Part shown: piece by piece, positions 29,668 to 63,998 of the stretch | Position numbering within the stretch: position 1 is the stretch's first letter | Layout of the letters: the number at the start of each line of letters is the position of its first letter | DNA from: Cymodocea nodosa | Taxonomy: Eukaryota; Streptophyta; Magnoliopsida; Alismatales; Cymodoceaceae | Assembly (NCBI GenBank): GCA_036874045.1 | Contig: CM072341.1 | Span: 11,854,501 to 11,918,500 of the forward strand | DNA length: 64,000 nucleotides | Reading direction: 5' to 3' | Program-made: the position numbers and the translations under genes | The notes under the pieces: generated by a model | What the model saw: the letters and a program-made list of their open reading frames with translations, nothing else | Database searches by the model: none | Told to the model about the DNA's origin: nothing

Positions 29668-32600
29668 TATCCAATATAATAGAATTAAGTATGAGAATCT
29701 TATAGTTTACCCAACTAATGGTCAGTTTAGAACAAGTAATATGTTGAGAGACAAGGAAGTTTGAGATAGGTATAACAGACTTGAGCGTAATTTAGAACAA
29801 AATATGGACAAACTAGAACAATACATGCATCAACAATAAGAAATTAACCAATTAGATTATAGGGAAGAATATTCAGAACCTAAAATCGATATTATCTATG
29901 AAACAAAAAAACCATAATGAAAATTGATTAAAAATTAAATGCAATGAGACTAGATGATCTAGAAAGAAAGTTAAAAGCATTGAATGATTTTACAATGAAA
30001 TTACAAATTATGCAAAAGGAAAATACAAATGAAAACTTTAATGTTGAAGATCTGCATAATTTGCAAAACATACAGACAAAAGATAATGCTAATGAAAAAG
30101 AATTTAAAGAATGTAATTTAAAATTGAAAATAATAGAAGATCAAAATCAAGAAAATGAGATACAAAAACATCATGAAAGTAATGAAAATCTACAAGATGT
30201 GTGTATAATATTAAGATTTGGTACTGATATACCACCAAGAATTTAAAAAGAAAGCAAAGTAGAGCTAAGTAAGAACAAAATTTGAAATGACAATGAACAG
30301 GTAATATCTGAAAACTTAGAAATCAATGAAGAAAAATCGGAATCAAAAAATCAGACTAAAAATGATCAAAAAAATGAAATAAAAGAAAAAGAATATTGTA
30401 AGTCACAATCATTAAAACCCTATCTTGAAAGATTACAACAAACATTTTCTGAAAAAATGAGAGAAATTTTTGAAAAAGTACAAGTTAACATTCATTTATT
30501 AGACTTATTGTAAAAAATGTCACATTGTACTAAATTTCTTAAGGATTTGTGTACTAAGATAAGAGAGCGAAAAGTTTTAAGGAAAGTCTTTTTAGCTAAG
30601 CAAAGTAGTTTTCTATTTCTACAACAAATTCCTAAAAAGTTATCTAATCTAGGGATCTTTGTTATATCATACACCATAGGAAATATCATTTTGGAAAGAA
30701 CCTTAATAGACTTAGGTACGAGTATAAATGTTATGTCTAGTGATATATTTACATCATTAGGATTAGAAGGCTTAATCATTACTAGGACTGTCATTCAATT
30801 AATAGATAGAAGTATAAGATACCCTAAAGGAAAAATAGAAGATGTCCTAATTAAAGTTAAAAACTTCATATATCCTATTGAAATTATGATTTTAGATTCT
30901 TAACAAATTAAGCATCAAAATCATGATACATCTTTAATTTTGGGAATGCCATTTTTAGCAATATCAAGGGCTATTATAAATTGTAAAACTGAAGTGATGA
31001 AATTAGCATATGGTAATGAGGATACTCAATTAAATATTTTCAAACCAAGAAAGTTTGAGGAGTTAGAAATGTCTTTACATACTATAGACTTTCTAGAGGA
31101 TGAAGGAGATATGCTAGATGAAGTTATTCAAGAAGAATTAAATAGGCAATTATATTCCGAAACTTTAGAAGTAAGTGAAGACATAGATGTAGAAGGAGAT
31201 CAAGAAGAGTTTAATATAGAAGATGAAAATGTTAGATTAAGAGTTCTAGCTTCTGATGGTCAACATTTAGATTTAAAACCTTAACCTCTGGAATTAACCT
31301 ATATTTTCTGGAAGAAAAACGAACATGTCCAATCATTATTGCATCAAATTTAAAAAGGATCAAATATCTAAATTAAAAGATATAGTAAAAATTTATAAAA
31401 CAACAATAGGATGGATTATGGTTGATATAAAATGGTTAAGTGCAACTTTATGCTGTCACCATATATATTTAGAAGAGAATGTTAAACTAGTTAGAATTCC
31501 TAAGAGGAGATTAAATTCAAACCTTAAAGAAGTTGTCATGAAGGAAATAGTGAAATGATTAGATAATAATATAATTTATCCAATTTCCAATAGCTCATGG
31601 GTTAGTCCAATCCATGTAGTTTCCAAAAAATCAATATTAACAATTATTAAGAATGAAAGTCAGGACTTGATACCTACTAGAATTCAATCAGGCTGGAGAG
31701 AGTGTATAGACTATAGAAAGCTAAATGTTATGACTAGAAAAGATCATTTTTCCTTACCTTTTATAGATCAAATGTTAAAGAAATTAGCAGGGCAAAAATA
31801 TTTTTGTTTCCTAGATGAGTATTTAGGATATAACTAAGTTCTAATAGCATTAGAGGATTAAGAGAAAACAACTTTCACATGTCCTAATGGAACTTATGCT
31901 TTTAAGAGAATGTCATTCAGATTATGCAATACATTAGATACCTTTCAAAGGTGTATGTAGGGTATATTCACTAGAATAACTGAATATCTTTTAGAAATAT
32001 TTATGGATGATTTTACTATATATGAAACTTCATATGAAGTGTGTTTAAACAATTTAGACCAAGTATTAAAATGTTGTGTAGAAAAGAATCTAGTTCTAAA
32101 TTGGGAAAAATGTCACTTCATGGTTAAACAAGAAATAGTCTTGAGACATGTTGTTTCAAAGAAAAGGCTAGAAGTAGATAAAGCTCAAATAGAAGTAATT
32201 TCTAATCTACTAGAACCTAAATCAGTAAAAGACATTAGATTATTTCTAGGACATGCAGGATTTTATAGGAGATTTATTAGAGATTTTAGTAAAATAGCTA
32301 AACCTTTAACTAATCTATTAAAAGATGTTCCATTTAACTTTGATAAGAATTGCAAAAAAATATTTTTCAAGCTTAAAGCTACCTTAATTTCAACTCCTAT
32401 AATACAAGTACCTAATTGAAACCATCTATTTAAATTAATGTGCGATGCATCTAATCTTGCTTTAGAAGTAATGTTGGGACAGAAGATAAAAAAATCTTCT
32501 AGAGTGATTCATTATGCAAGTAAAATATTAAATGAGGCTCAAGTTAATTATATAACTACTAAAAAAGAATTATTAGCTGTTGTGTTTGCCTTAAAAAAGT

Positions 32601-34546
32601 TCAGATCATATCTAATTGGAGCTAAAGTGATAGTATATACGGATCATTTAGCTTTAAAACACTTAATAGCAAAGAAAGAGAATAAACCTAGGTTGATCCA
32701 GTGGATATTGTTATTGCAAGAATTTGATCTAGAAATTAAAGATAAAAAAGGATATGAGAATATAGCAGCAGACCATAATTTTGTTGATGAACAATTAATG
32801 ACGATAAACACAATGCCTTGGTATGTAGACATAGTTTTTTTATTATTTTTATCCTCCAAGAGTATCCATGGACGTGATAACATGTGAGTCTCAATGGACA
32901 CTCAAACAGCTTGGTATACACCAAGAGTATTCAAAGAGGCGAAAACTTGTAGGAGGCCTTGCTAAGCCCCAACATGGTAGATTTTTCCAAGTATCACGTA
33001 CTTTGTCTTACAGAGATTCTCAACTAATTGGGGGTACCCTAAGTGGCCCCATCCACCAACTCGGTTGAGATTACTAATTGAGGCAAAGCTCGCAATGTTA
33101 GCACGTGAATTGGGTAAGTAGTGCACACACCTACAGCTTGCCAATGCTTGAGCAGAGTCAGCACTACTACCCATAGGCACTACACGAGAACTTCCTAGGT
33201 GGTCATTCATCCTAGTTCTACTCCCGCCCAAACATAGTTAACTCCAAAGTTTTTACAAGAGTAGGTGCTTGATAGTAGGTGTAAATGCACCTATATGTAG
33301 ATATAGTTAATTACTTAGTTACATGTTTAACACCTAAAGATTAGAATAGACAAGATAAGAAATTGTTCTTTTCAAGAGTGAAATATTACTATTGGGAAGA
33401 CTCATACTTATTTAAGAAATGCCCTAATCTAGTTTTAAAGATGTGTGTTCCAAAAACTAAATATTAGAACATATTGTCTTTCTATCATGACCAAGCATGT
33501 AGATGACATTTTGGTTTAGGGAAAATTACTACCAAAATTCTACAATGTGGATTTTATTGGCCAACACTATTTAAAGATGCTCATAAATACTACTTAAGTT
33601 GTTTAAGATGTCAACAAATAGGAATGATATCAAAGAGTAATCTGATGCCTCTAAATCCTATTGTTGAGATTGAAATCTTTGATGTATAGGGAATAGATTT
33701 TATGAGTCTATTTGTTATGTCTAATTAACCTAACTATATATTGTTAGGTGTGGATTATGTATCTAAATGGATAAAAGTTATTTCTACAAAAACTAATGAC
33801 AACAAAGTGGTATTACATTTTATTAGAACTAATATAATTTCTAGCTTTGGAATACCTAAAACTATTATTAGTGATAGAGAAACTCATTTCTATAATAGAA
33901 GTTTTGAAGCCTTAATGAAGAAATATGGAGTAAATCACTAAATAGCAACATCATATCATCTATAACAAGTGGACAAGTAGAAAGTGCAAACAAACAAATT
34001 AAGTTAATCTTAGAAAAAGTAGTAAATCTTATTAGAAAAGATTGGACTAATAGATTAATAGATGCACTTTGGGCTTATAGAACTGCTTATAAAACAAGCT
34101 TAAGTATGTCATCTTTTAGAATAGTATATGGAAAAAGTTGCTATTTACCAACTGAAATTGAATATAAAGCTTATTGGGCATTAAAAACTCTAAACACTAA
34201 TTTAAATCAAGCTGCTGAAAATAGAAAAATACAATTGATTGAGTTAGAAGAATTTAGGAATGAAGCTTATTCAAAAACTGTAAAAGAAAAAGAGAAAATG
34301 AAGTTTTAGCATGACAATAAAATTATTTCAAAAACTTTTGAAATAGGACAATTAAGATCTAGATAGGCAGGACCTTACATAGTTCGAAATATTTATTCCT
34401 ATGGAGCTATGGAAAGTGAAATTCCTAAAAATCAGAATATATTTAAAGTAAATGGAGAAAAGACTTAGACCTATTCTGAAATTTCCAAAAAATTCCTTTG
34501 GAATTATAGAAGAAGTAAGAGTAGAGGACTACTCGAGTTTTATTAA
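29668..34546 (+). pseudogene. element A pol: protease, RT, RNase H, integrase (decayed)
   Basis: Pre-protease linker (to about 30500), aspartyl protease with DLGTSIN (about 30709-30730), RT with FCFLDEY, TFTCPNGTYAF and FMDDF catalytic motif (about 31600-32420), RNase H with [16 protein letters not shown] and [10 protein letters not shown] (32435-32790). Then integrase with the HHCC region around DQACR.HF and CLRCQQ, the DDE residues in GIDFM, SDRETHF and GQVESAN, and the tail ending [11 protein letters not shown]. The frame is broken by many stops, mostly at positions where the B copy or the family has Gln or Trp. The SINE at 32837-33293 interrupts it between MPWYVDIV and NYLVT. Confidence 0.85.
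32837..33293 (-). mobile_element. 5S-rRNA-derived SINE (SINE3-like), full length
   Basis: On the minus strand the insert starts directly with a 5S-like sequence (33293 to about 33175, 119 nt). It has AGCACC, AACTTTGGAGTTAACTATG, TTGGGCGGGAGTAGAACTAG, GATGAATGACCACCTAGGAAG and TCTCGTGTAGTGCC, colinear with plant 5S rRNA and its A-box/IE/C-box internal promoter. A 338-bp unrelated body follows and ends in an A-rich tail (GGATAAAAATAATAAAAAAA at 32856-32837). It is flanked by 15-bp target duplications, TATGTAGACATAGTT (32822-32836) and TATGTAGATATAGTT (33294-33308), one mismatch. Tail plus a long duplication means LINE-type retroposition. A Cassandra-type LTR would give 5 bp and TG..CA ends. Confidence 0.75.
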
Positions 34547-58198: not shown

Positions 58199-59019
58199 GT
58201 AGCATAAATAATATCTAAATCATTAATGTTTGCATTCTTTTCTACTAGTTTTTGATTTAATTATAACTCATCTATTTTCTTTGTTAATTCAGTTAATTTC
58301 ACCTCAAGCATAGTACTTGAATCTATTTTATGCATTCCTCTTGGCAATATTTTTTTATCTGTAATAGCTTTAGTTGAGTTTTCCCAATGTGCAGTTCTTT
58401 TTGCAAAGTTTTCTAAATATGCCCATGCTTCTTCATTACATAACTTTAAAAATCCATTTTAACAAGTAGATTTTGATAAAGATTTCGTTGAAACATCTAT
58501 GCCTTCATAAATTATACCTATTAGTTGTGCTTTACTCATTGCATGATGTGGACATTGAGTTAGTAAATCTTTAAATCTTTCAAAATATTTCCAGAATGAT
58601 TCACCCTGTTTTTGGCTACACATTAATATTTCTTTCTTCTTTTTAATTGTTTGATGTGTTGGATAATATTTTTTCAGAAAAACAGAGCAAAATTCAGGCA
58701 ATGTAGAAATTGAATCAAGCGATAGAGTATATAACCATCTTTGAACTGTGTCTTTTAAAGAAAAAAAGATATATCTAAGTTTAATAGCATCTATACTCAT
58801 GTTCGACATTTTCATCATTTGACAAACTTCATTAAATTCTCTAAGGAAATAATAGGTGTCCTCTCTTTCTAATCCATGAAAATGTGGCAATTGACTAATA
58901 TAATTAGATTTCAATTCAAACCTATCTCCCTCAAAGTTTGGCAATCGAATACATGAAGGTTCATCAACTAATTTCGGATACAGAATGTCTCCTAATGATT
59001 TTTCTACTAGAACAACCAT
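58199..59019 (-). pseudogene. element B gag, cut by a copia element
   Basis: From ATG at 59019: MVVLVEKSLGDILYPK, PNFEGDRFELKSNYI, LPHFHGLEREDTYYFLREF, IKLRYIFFSLKDTVQRWLY, FLKKYYPTHQTI, GESFWKYFERFKDLL, CPHHAMSKAQLI. It is colinear with Athila/Tat-type gag (FELKP..LLP.FHGL..EDP..HL.EF, LKD.A..WL, GES..EYW.RFK.L...CPHH). A stop falls after SKSTC (58459), shared with the A copy; similarity continues to 58199, where the copia LTR begins. Only the N-terminal two-thirds remain. Confidence 0.82.
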
Positions 59020-60237
59020 TTCTACGTTCTCTTTTAAAGAAAGGTTAGCTATACCCCAAAGAATTTCATTAAAGTTCAGTTCAGAAAATTTTTCAGTACT
59101 CTTCTGCGATGAAAATTCCTAGGTAGGTATTCTTACTAATCGTTTAGTGCTTAGAGAACAAGTCCATGTGCTCGTAAATAAATAGTAGAAGATTAATTAC
59201 GTACCAGTCTGAAGTTTTCCATTCAGTAAATATTTGTTGTCGGATGAATTCAAATCAGCTGCTTCACCTTCCAGTTCCTCTAACGCATTCTCCTTTCTTT
59301 TAAAAGTGCTGGTAACTCGTAAATAACATTCTGATTTATATATATAATGTACATCCATAAATTGAATAAATCTCGTTGCAAGAACGTGTCTTGCAATGTG
59401 CATTGTGGTTCCTGTTTTTATGGATAAGTGTACCACTATTAATTTCTAATTTTAGTAACCGCTAAGCCAACGGAGTTTCGTTCATGGTTAAAAGAATAAC
59501 TGTTCTGCTTAATCCATGAACTAACCTCGTTGAGTTATAGATAACTCAACGGAATACAACCGGTTAATGTTGCTAACTCCACAGACTAACTTCGTTGAGT
59601 TACACATAACTCAACGGAGTGACCTTATATTATATTACTGACCTCGTGGAGTTACGGTTAACTCAACGAACTTACTTCGTTGAGTTAACACGTAGCAACT
59701 TCTAAGTTTTACTCTCGTAAATTGCTCTCTATTTTTTCTTTTTCATTCTGCTAACCAAAATAAAGTTAAATCTATGTCATTAATGCCTCATTTTAATCAA
59801 AATTCATTTAAATCTGAACATTATATAAAGATTTAACTTGCAGGTCATTTTATATTATGCAGAATTTACATTTTACCTTGCAACATGTAGAAATTTTTAT
59901 GCATTTATCCTGTCATTCAGCAAATTGTAATTCTGTTACATATTCATTTACAAAGTTCCACAAATTATATAATATTCAATAAATTCCATTCATTTCACAT
60001 GCAAAACACGTATGAAAAGTACATCTGAAAAATTATATTCATTCATATGAATCAATTTACAGTATAAATACATCATACAATTTCATACAATTTTATACAA
60101 GTAGACGAACAATACAATTTAATCTATATTCCTAAGTTCATCTACTTCCTTCTGGAGTTTTTCTAATTGAAGTTCTAATTGATTAATTCTCTCTACAGCT
60201 CCTGTAATTCCTCCAGAAGGTACAGCTATCTCTGCAG
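59020..60237 (-). other. element B spacer between accessory ORF and gag
   Basis: About 1.2 kb, noncoding. 59460-59700 has at least four CCGTTGAGTTA..TAACTCAACGG inverted pairs like those in the gypsy LTRs. A small frame (59436-59197, MVHLSIKTGTTMHIAR) has no recognisable relative. It could be a leader for gag or a remnant LTR/leader of a tandem element. Confidence 0.4.
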
Positions 60238-62459: not shown

Positions 62460-63998
62460 CTAAGTAAAGCTCGAGTAGTCCTCTACTCTGACTTCTTCTA
62501 TAATTCCAAAGGAGTTTTTTGCTGTTTTCAGAATAGGTCTAAGTCCTTGTCCATTTACTTTAAATATATTCTGATTTTTAGGATTTTCAATTTCAATAGC
62601 TCTATAAGGATAAATATTTTGAACTATGTAAGGTCTTGCCCATCTAGATCTTAATTTTCCTAGATGGTTATGGAGTCTAGCCATATAAAGATATACTTCT
62701 TGTCCTATTTCAAAGCTTTTTGGAATAATTTTTCTATCATGCCAAAATTTTATTTTCTCTTTTTCTCTTACAATCTTCGAATAAGCTTCATTTCTAAATT
62801 CTCCTAATTCAATTAGTTGCATTTTTCTATTTTCAGTAGCTTGATTTAAATTAGTGTTCAGAGTTTTTAATGCCCAATAAGCTTTATGTTTTATTTCAAT
62901 TGGTAAATGACAACTTTTTCCATATACTAGCCTAAAAGGTGACATACCTAAGCTTGTCTTATAAGCAGTTCTATAAGCCCAAAGTGCATCTATCAATCTA
63001 TTAGCCCAATCTGTTCTAGTAGGATTTACTACTTTTTCTAAGATTAACTTAATTTGTTTGTTAGCACTTTTTACTTGTCCACTTGTTTGCAGATGATATG
63101 ATGTTGCAATTTTGTGGTTTACTCCATATTTCTTCATTAAGGCTACAAAACTTCTATTACGGAAATGAGTTCCTCTATCACTGATAATAGCTTTAGGTAT
63201 TCCAAATCTAGCAAATATATTTGTTCTTATAAATTGTATTACCACTTTGTTGTCATTAGTTTTTGTAGGAATAACTTCTATTCATTTAGATACATAATCC
63301 ACCCCCAATAATATATAATTAAATTGATTAGACATAGGAAATAGGCCCATAAAATCTATTCCCCACACATCAAAGATTTCAACCTCAACAATAGGATTAA
63401 GAGGCATCATATTCCTCTTTGATATTCTTCCTATTTGTTGACATCTTAAACAACTTAAGCAATATTTATGAGCATCTTTGAATAGTGTTGGCCAATAAAA
63501 CCCACATTGTAGAATTTTTGCAGCAGTTTTCCCTGAACCAAAATGCCCTCCACAAGCTTGATCATGACAGAAAGACAATATGCACGAATATTCAGTTTCT
63601 GGAACACACCTCCTTAAAACCAGATCAGGACATTTCTTAAATAAGTAAGGGTCTTCCCAATAGTAATATTGTACTCTCGAGAAAGACAATTTCTTATCCT
63701 GTCTATTCCAATCCTTAGGTGTTAAACCAGTTACTAAGTAATTAACTATGTTTGCATACCAAGGCATTGTATTGATGGTCATTAATTGTTCATCAGGAAA
63801 ATTATCCTTAATTTTAATATTTGATTTTTCTATTTGTAATCTTGATAAATGATCTGCTACTACATTCTCACAACCTTTTTTATCTTTAATTTCTAGATCA
63901 AATTCTTGTAATAATAATATCCATCGGATCAATTTAGGCTTAGTCTCTTTTTTCTTTATTAGATGTTTTAAAGCTGAATGATCTGTGTATACTATCAC
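62460..63998 (-). pseudogene. element B pol: RNase H C-terminus and integrase, nearly intact
   Basis: Enters the window in RNase H ([37 protein letters not shown]). Integrase follows with the zinc-binding H..H..C..C pattern ([20 protein letters not shown]), catalytic Asp in WGIDFMG and SDRGTHF, then [14 protein letters not shown] where the catalytic Glu (GQVES in copy A) has become Lys. The C-terminal GPY/F-like tail has [19 protein letters not shown] and ends EDYSSFT plus stop. One internal stop (TGA for Trp in YVSK-W-IE, at about 63283). Less decayed than copy A, hence younger. Confidence 0.88.

Follow-up and report, generated by a model that had tools for sequence, protein, structure and literature searches.

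Short interspersed nuclear elements (SINEs) of the SINE3 class are non-autonomous elements with a head derived from 5S ribosomal RNA (rRNA), in which A box, intermediate element (IE) and C box are found, and an unrelated body. Described examples are zebrafish SINE3, AmnSINE1, SINE3-1_TC of Tribolium, the lepidopteran HaSE3 and PxSE4/5, and AfuSINE3 of Aspergillus. Here and below, statements on published work refer to those sections of the cited papers that were available. The hosts of SINE3 are given as vertebrates and some insects, and their partner long interspersed nuclear elements (LINEs) as members of the CR1, I and RTE clades (PMC7245038, published in 2020). RSg-1 is named as the partner of a salmonid family (PMC3747384), the 5S-headed SINE of Aspergillus was reported in 2016 (PMC5063351), and further lepidopteran families followed in 2021 (PMC8010984). 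In plants, a 5S-derived promoter for RNA polymerase III (pol III) occurs in the retroelement Cassandra, which has two long terminal repeats (LTRs), a methionine (Met) primer-binding site and a polypurine tract (PMC10853983). Here, we describe a 457-bp insert in a 64,000-nt stretch of the Cymodocea nodosa genome (contig CM072341.1, positions 11,854,501 to 11,918,500; the window in the following), which we regard with near certainty as a member of a genuine 5S-headed SINE family. It resembles SINE3 in its anatomy and differs from it in the plant host, in the likely L1 partner and in the presence of copies within telomere repeats. The reading we strongly favour as a whole is that of a 5S-headed SINE family in a plant genome whose own L1-clade LINEs most likely mobilise it. 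Among the open-access papers listed, titles and opening lines of abstracts yielded no report of a 5S-headed SINE from a plant; Repbase, Dfam and subscription journals are outside this scope.

The insert occupies window positions 32837-33293 on the minus strand and is the sole copy of the SINE in the window. Its minus strand opens at 33292 with AGGTGCATTTACACC, and its first 119 nt (33174-33292) are colinear with 5S rRNA. RF00001 matches this head at 33292-33174 (-) over model positions 1-120 with 34.6 bits (E 2.1e-4; cmscan, 6 kb searched). This is below the gathering score of 38, and the window copy alone is therefore not decisive; in the search of the whole window, nothing reached gathering. 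The assignment of the head is also supported by the boxes of the family consensus compared with the 5S rRNA of the host. The body, which is unlike 5S, extends from 33173 to 32851 as delimited by the family alignment, and is followed by the A-rich 3' tail AAAAATAATAAAAA at 32837-32850. In the 3' part of the window copy lies an internal direct repeat that had escaped the preliminary description: the terminal 3' unit at 32850-32885 (-) is 75% identical to a second unit at 32915-32950 (-), at a start-to-start distance of 65, and an extra unit is present in some other genome copies, where second pieces match query positions 344-438. The insert is flanked by target-site duplications of 15 bp with one mismatch (copy L048), namely TATGTAGATATAGTT at 33294-33308 on the 5' side (minus strand AACTATATCTACATA) and TATGTAGACATAGTT at 32822-32836 on the 3' side (minus strand AACTATGTCTACATA). 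The length of the insert, its 5S part, its tail and its duplications had all been given in the preliminary description, and the coordinates of the insert stated there are right.

The genome to which the window belongs (374.6 Mb in 28 contigs) was searched with the 457-bp insert as query. From 920 first-look candidates, 40 copies were scored, which gave 47 rows, i.e., 40 main rows including the window and seven further pieces. Besides the window, the main rows are 84-89% identical to the query, and 37 of the 40 begin at or before query base 5, i.e., at about 5S position 1. A 22-nt pattern from the head occurs at 507 genome sites within two mismatches, part of which were read as sequence, against none for the reversed pattern as control; patterns from the 3' end and from the body occur at 302 and 145 sites. 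A second set of 40 copies was taken from the first unfetched places (0 or 1 mismatch) among 100 listed of the 145 body-pattern sites, which avoids a choice based on the head. In this set, the start lies no more than 6 nt from 5S position 1 in 29 copies, and 35 retain the head at least partly. No other head was noticed on these 40 copies, with 20 nt examined upstream of the five headless ones. The 5S model matched 33 of 40 fetched copies including the window (17/20 and 16/20; E up to 1), always over model positions 1-120, and nine of the 40 reach at least the gathering score, the best with 48.4 bits. The earlier expectations that the 5S part stands at the insertion edge, that other copies start at 5S position 1 and that the 5S part belongs to the family as such are in good agreement with these counts.

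Two main length classes were found. The window type has a long body and two 3' units; the other measures about 390-400 nt, its body being shortened and its 3' units more numerous. The telomeric copies L037 and L097 combine the long body with the long tail. SINE sequence also occurs in other contexts. In C16:14643095-14768336 (L144), nine SINE 3' ends follow each other at a spacing of about 15.64 kb, representing a tandem array of a large unit with a SINE remnant. In L087 and L117, the SINE stops abruptly near consensus position 395; the unrelated sequence beyond this point is almost identical in the two (TGTTTA-A-AATGAAAAAGT...), which gives the impression of a SINE built into another repeat.

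For the origin of the head, the 5S rRNA genes of the host provide the reference. All 47 scored matches (of 10838 candidates) lie in an array on contig C1 at 9.26-11.27 Mb. Within this array (C1 at about 9.26-11.27 Mb, L049-L078), 25 of the 30 best-scoring fetched copies equal the array consensus. Compared with what we take to be the usual plant 5S rRNA, the array shows several C>T/G>A changes, promoter boxes included. Aligned without gaps to the array consensus, the telomeric-type head agrees at 83 of 119 positions and the window-type consensus at 80 of 119; the maxima in 2000 shuffles each are 48 and 50, respectively. The agreement is densest in the promoter. With box limits after the 5S literature, the telomeric type is identical to the host 5S rRNA at 14/15 positions of the A box, 6/6 of the IE and 16/18 of the C box (36/39 nt), and the window type at 14/15, 4/6 and 14/18 (32/39 nt). 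Outside positions 50-97, both types equal the host at 41 of 71 positions. The head consensus folds with -40.6 kcal/mol (z -1.98; host 5S z -1.89), a predicted fold which we read as 5S-like. The stop signal TTTT and a TGGTATCAG-type primer site are both absent from the family consensus, from the first two copies of L133, the second copy of L134, L136 and L132.

Target-site duplications were scored as direct repeats of at least 8 nt across both edges of each copy and compared with mismatched edge pairs. In the first set, a score of at least 9 was reached by 27 of 40 copies and 1 of 80 mismatched controls, and a score of at least 10 by 24 of 40 and 0 of 80. Among the copies of the second set, a score of at least 9 was found for 21 of the 29 with a head and for 1 of the 11 others. 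Copies with duplications of their own, of 10-20 bp, had been anticipated from the window copy. For the 42 of 80 copies that bear a head and score at least 10, the duplications have a median length of 15 nt (range 11-25) and mismatches at 23 of 622 positions. The base before the duplication is T or C in 35 of these 42 copies; an A-rich start of the duplication is partly forced, because the tail itself is A-rich. Judged by length, these duplications are of the kind left by LINE-type insertion, unlike the 5-bp kind of LTR elements.

The copies show a median identity of 89.1% to their consensus. Among the 57 near-full copies (the other 23 of the 80 have truncated heads or tails and are omitted from the count), 2710 differences from the consensus comprise 2482 transitions and 228 transversions, and 1943 are C>T or G>A. 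Great age as the explanation of this divergence was rejected in view of the C>T/G>A bias and of the duplications, which differ at the 23 of 622 positions given above, in copies chosen for a good duplication. Deamination, as in methylated copies, is the better reading of the two. Recent activity is indicated by L136, which lies outside telomeric sequence, has a duplication of its own and a 36-nt A tail, and is 99.0% identical to the first SINE of L133.

The same genome harbours LINEs with the features of the plant L1 clade. A copy with open reading frames (ORFs) (L151/L120) encodes a DUF4283 domain in ORF1, and an apurinic/apyrimidinic endonuclease-type (APE) endonuclease, a reverse transcriptase and zf-RVT in ORF2, and a 3' A tail likewise belongs to its features; the nearest solved relative of ORF2 is human LINE-1 ORF2p (E 2.6e-52). 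Fourteen LINE loci were fetched, and in ten an A-tailed 3' end was recognised. At eight places on five chromosome ends, an L1 3' end is followed on its own strand, 67-251 bp downstream, by a SINE head; in three of these cases, the position of the SINE comes from the fetched loci. In plants, an L1 partner was reported for the SINEs ZmSINE2/3 and tobacco TS (PMC3747384), whose pol III-type head is derived from transfer RNA (tRNA) instead of 5S rRNA; in contrast to these, no LINE tail shared with the 5S-headed SINE was found. A-tail recognition is argued for part of the plant L1s, and poly(A)-recognising L1s are said to need no shared tail (PMC3747384). We hold it very probable that L1 is the driver of the SINE, which would use the L1 machinery.

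Both elements are concentrated at chromosome ends, and many of the best-preserved SINE copies lie within telomere repeats beside L1-type LINEs. From 1926 candidates, 150 zf-RVT matches were scored, and 61 of them are at most 110 kb away from a contig end, against 1.9 expected. They are distributed over 25 ends, and 58 of the 61 share one orientation with the LINE 3' end towards the centromere. Among 100 listed of 118 L1 3' ends, 43 are near ends, all in the orientation of the LINEs. Exact SINE heads near ends amount to 19 among 100 listed of the 507, with 1.1 expected, and 17 of the 19 share the LINE orientation. Contigs C4 and C24 enter these counts, and that of the telomere-flanked heads below, without a length, so that their right ends could not count. 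The preference is not exclusive: 81 of the 100 listed exact heads, and the window copy too, are farther than 110 kb from contig ends of known position. The telomeric context itself is visible in the 33 exact heads with AACCC within 6 nt upstream, of which 32 lie within 68 kb of 15 chromosome ends, all 32 in the LINE orientation. The exception, C4:4162669, is preceded by AACCCCTTTT, which is not telomere-like, on a contig of at least 5.06 Mb.

Individual ends illustrate the arrangement. At the right end of C16 (L119), the A tail of an L1 3' end passes directly into CCCTAAA repeats; the sites at which L120-L122 end are different ones. On the right of C1 (L133), a LINE 3' end with A29 is followed by telomere repeats, a SINE with A tail, telomere repeats, a SINE with A31, telomere repeats, and a third SINE with A15 and telomere repeats. 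A row of four SINE copies stands at the right end of C15 (L148), two of them short deletion forms. In these two mini-SINEs, with heads at + coordinates 720 and 598 on the reverse strand, the first ~28 nt of the 5S head are fused to the last 3' unit, and each has its own A tail and telomere tract. Single or double SINEs with an L1 3' end upstream of each were found at four more ends (L037, L094, L097, L098, L132); in L098, the telomere repeats are confined to the 5' side. The L1-bearing contig ends include C1 right (L133, L134, L147), C16 right (L119), C15 right (L148), C7 left, C8 left and C10 left, and those L1s that were read pass through A tails into CCCTAAA repeats. The final 2001 bases of C1 consist of pure telomere repeats with 283 CCCTAAA units, which indicates an ordinary chromosome tip. 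The last stretches of C16 and C9, where the assembly stops inside other sequence, contain no CCCTAAA, and the first 2500 bases of C7 are N.

Insertion into repeats of the telomerase type in a fixed orientation is in good agreement with non-LTR elements that are likewise interleaved with telomere repeats, i.e., SART/TRAS in insects, Zepp in Chlorella, GilM/GilT in Giardia, MoTeR/FoTeR in fungi and Tx1-1_ACar in a lizard. LINEs of this kind are listed for insects, Giardia, Chlorella, a fungus and a lizard (PMC10088271). Two reviews on plant telomeres (PMC7046594, PMC6356271) mention the retrotransposon telomeres of Drosophila, and one of them cites LINE-like elements at a Chlorella chromosome end; the available parts name no land plant. 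In contrast to the listed systems, the autonomous partner is here a plant L1 that has internal copies too, and a non-autonomous SINE is present in addition. Repeated independent insertion into telomeric repeats is, in our view, a likely explanation of these rows.

We suggest the following mechanism. The 5S head with A box, IE and C box would act as a type 1 pol III promoter, and the transcript would run through the body and the A-rich tail; readthrough to the A tail is plausible because the family consensus has no TTTT stop. The L1 endonuclease and reverse transcriptase would take this A-tailed RNA, and target-primed reverse transcription at T-rich nicks would give duplications close to 15 nt in length. 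A T-run of this kind (GGGTTT) is also present in the TTTAGGG strand of the telomere, which may explain why LINE and SINE also insert into, or are added to, telomere tracts. The sequence ...GGGTTT would pair with the A tail and the complementary DNA (cDNA) would become the continuation of the G-strand, which would yield the observed orientation, in which the 3' end faces the centromere; successive insertions would be separated by telomere repeats. For such priming, either the L1 endonuclease might nick within TTTAGGG repeats, or an open end might prime directly with telomerase repeats added later.

Several observations weigh against this picture. The window-type heads keep the IE and C box only to the extent given above (4/6 and 14/18), and 32 positions outside the boxes of the window-type consensus differ from the host 5S rRNA. 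One TTTT occurs in the window copy at element position 348, and one or two in each of L133 copy 3, L134 copy 1, L037 and L097. Five of the 40 body-motif copies are headless (L083, L092, L096, L099, L117) and start at positions 117-217, L083 at 117 and thus at about the end of the head; they look as 5' truncations would. No clear duplication was seen in 13 of 40 copies of the first set and in 8 of the 29 head-bearing copies of the second. Common flanks are shared by L022, L036 and L041, and by L079 and L080, which points to block-duplication products; the copies are thus not all independent, and such block copying, seen also in the pair from L133 and L134 discussed below, inflates the copy counts. 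The 3' end of the SINE, which the preliminary description had proposed to compare with LINE 3' ends of the same genome, shows no significant sequence similarity to the two sampled L1 tail classes: for the main class, 872 of 1000 shuffles reach the observed local score with the window-type tail and 59 of 1000 with the long-tail type, and for the second class 622 and 406 of 1000. The terminal hairpins of LINE and SINE are unlike in sequence and weak by shuffling (z -1.81 and -0.56). Since no homology to L1 tails is detectable, recognition would go via the A tail. The earlier claim of a LINE-mobilised family is consequently based on tail, duplications, site preference and shared telomeric positions, and not on shared LINE 3' sequence.

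Alternative explanations concern the head as well as the spread of the copies. That the 5S likeness arose by chance, or that some unrelated repeat picked up a 5S pseudogene, could be derived from the window copy alone, which is below the Rfam gathering score, but 119 ungapped colinear positions, the match to model positions 1-120 in 33 of 40 copies, the conservation of the boxes and hundreds of heads rule it out; the heads stand at the element edge in the copies read, and we give this explanation practically no chance. The identification as Cassandra itself, which the preliminary description had already denied, was likewise ruled out: there is no 5S part in two LTRs, no TGGTATCAG-type Met primer site (string search in the consensus and the telomeric copies), and no terminal repeat in the region; the duplications, searched for at lengths of 8 nt or more, are long instead of 5 bp, and an A-rich tail is present. 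It is by these hallmarks that the element is set apart from Cassandra. The position of the 5S head at the edge, the duplications of each copy's own, the preserved boxes and the lack of LTRs and Met primer site place it with SINEs of the SINE3 type. Descent from Cassandra is a different matter. A LINE might have captured the pol III transcript of a Cassandra TRIM (terminal-repeat retrotransposon in miniature), in which case an LTR retrotransposon, and not a 5S gene, supplied the head. Cassandra transcripts are said to begin within the 5S portion of the 5' LTR (PMC10886601), which would give a similar 5' edge, and the 5S parts of Cassandra vary outside the boxes (PMC10853983), where our head differs from the host, too. 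The missing primer site and terminal repeats speak against such a descent. So does a 39-nt stretch of the usual plant 5S promoter, which found no exact match; 100 listed of its 416 matches with 1-2 mismatches all fall into the 5S array on C1, and Cassandra copies may be among the other 316 or too diverged. We consider this descent very improbable.

For the SINE3-type element so delimited, L1 need not be the driver. Another LINE, of a different L1 lineage or of the RTE clade, would be compatible with SINE 3' ends unrelated to the two sampled tail classes, given that the 14 LINE loci fetched are a minority of the LINEs of the genome, but a poly(A)-recognising L1 would account for A-rich tails, long duplications and the telomeric positions and orientation common to both elements, and the eight same-strand neighbours of L1 3' end and SINE head at five ends point in the same direction; this alternative appears improbable. 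Slightly less so, though still unlikely, is that most telomeric copies stem from few subtelomeric SINE/LINE blocks copied among ends with their orientation kept. An identity of 98.2% indeed links SINE number three of L133 to the first one of L134, and clusters recur on one end. Length class, tail length and telomere-tract length, however, differ among ends (L037, L094, L097, L132, L133, L148), A tails pass directly into CCCTAAA tracts, the junction expected from priming on the TTT of the G-strand, and L1 has the same pattern on 25 ends. Subtelomeric block copying has probably added some copies to those that arose by insertion.

With regard to its surroundings, the window copy is inserted just downstream of the RNase H domain of a decayed Ty3/gypsy pol (32429-32725, +; Pfam RT_RNaseH with E 2e-32 and RT_RNaseH_2 with E 7.4e-19). 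The pol region extends on both sides of the insert, and its downstream frames are interrupted by stops. Other decayed pieces of LTR retrotransposons in the window lie at 31961-32416 (+), 58462-59118 (-) and 62463-63281 (-), with reverse transcriptase, gag and, slightly below the Pfam cut-off, an integrase core. The plant origin of the DNA, which the preliminary description had claimed from the letters alone, is supported by 31 matches to chlorophyll a/b-binding proteins (a family that also matches in a cyanobacterial control), by TTTAGGG telomeres and by L1s with DUF4283 and zf-RVT. Nine equal-scoring chlorophyll a/b-binding protein matches within 71 kb at C14:282417-353723 represent a recent tandem family.

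From a biological point of view, plants join the hosts of 5S-headed SINEs, in this case with L1 as the probable partner. That SINEs gain such promoters is known in animals, as noted in a 2024 study on Cassandra (PMC10853983), and Kojima repeated in 2024 the speculation that Cassandra arose from the insertion of a SINE3 into an LTR (PMC10886601). With a plant 5S SINE, such an origin of Cassandra becomes testable. Tentatively, and with less than even confidence, we picture the chromosome ends as mixed structures, built up by repeated addition of L1 and its 5S-headed SINE to telomeric DNA; the elements might prime directly on the TTT end of the G-strand and then be recapped by telomerase. The SINE would thereby count as a telomeric retroelement of the non-autonomous kind, and as a present-day counterpart of that 5S-promoter module from which Cassandra has been proposed to originate. 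With 25 L1-bearing ends (within 110 kb) and 15 ends with telomere-flanked SINE heads, targeting, orientation and healing by telomerase become testable in a plant.

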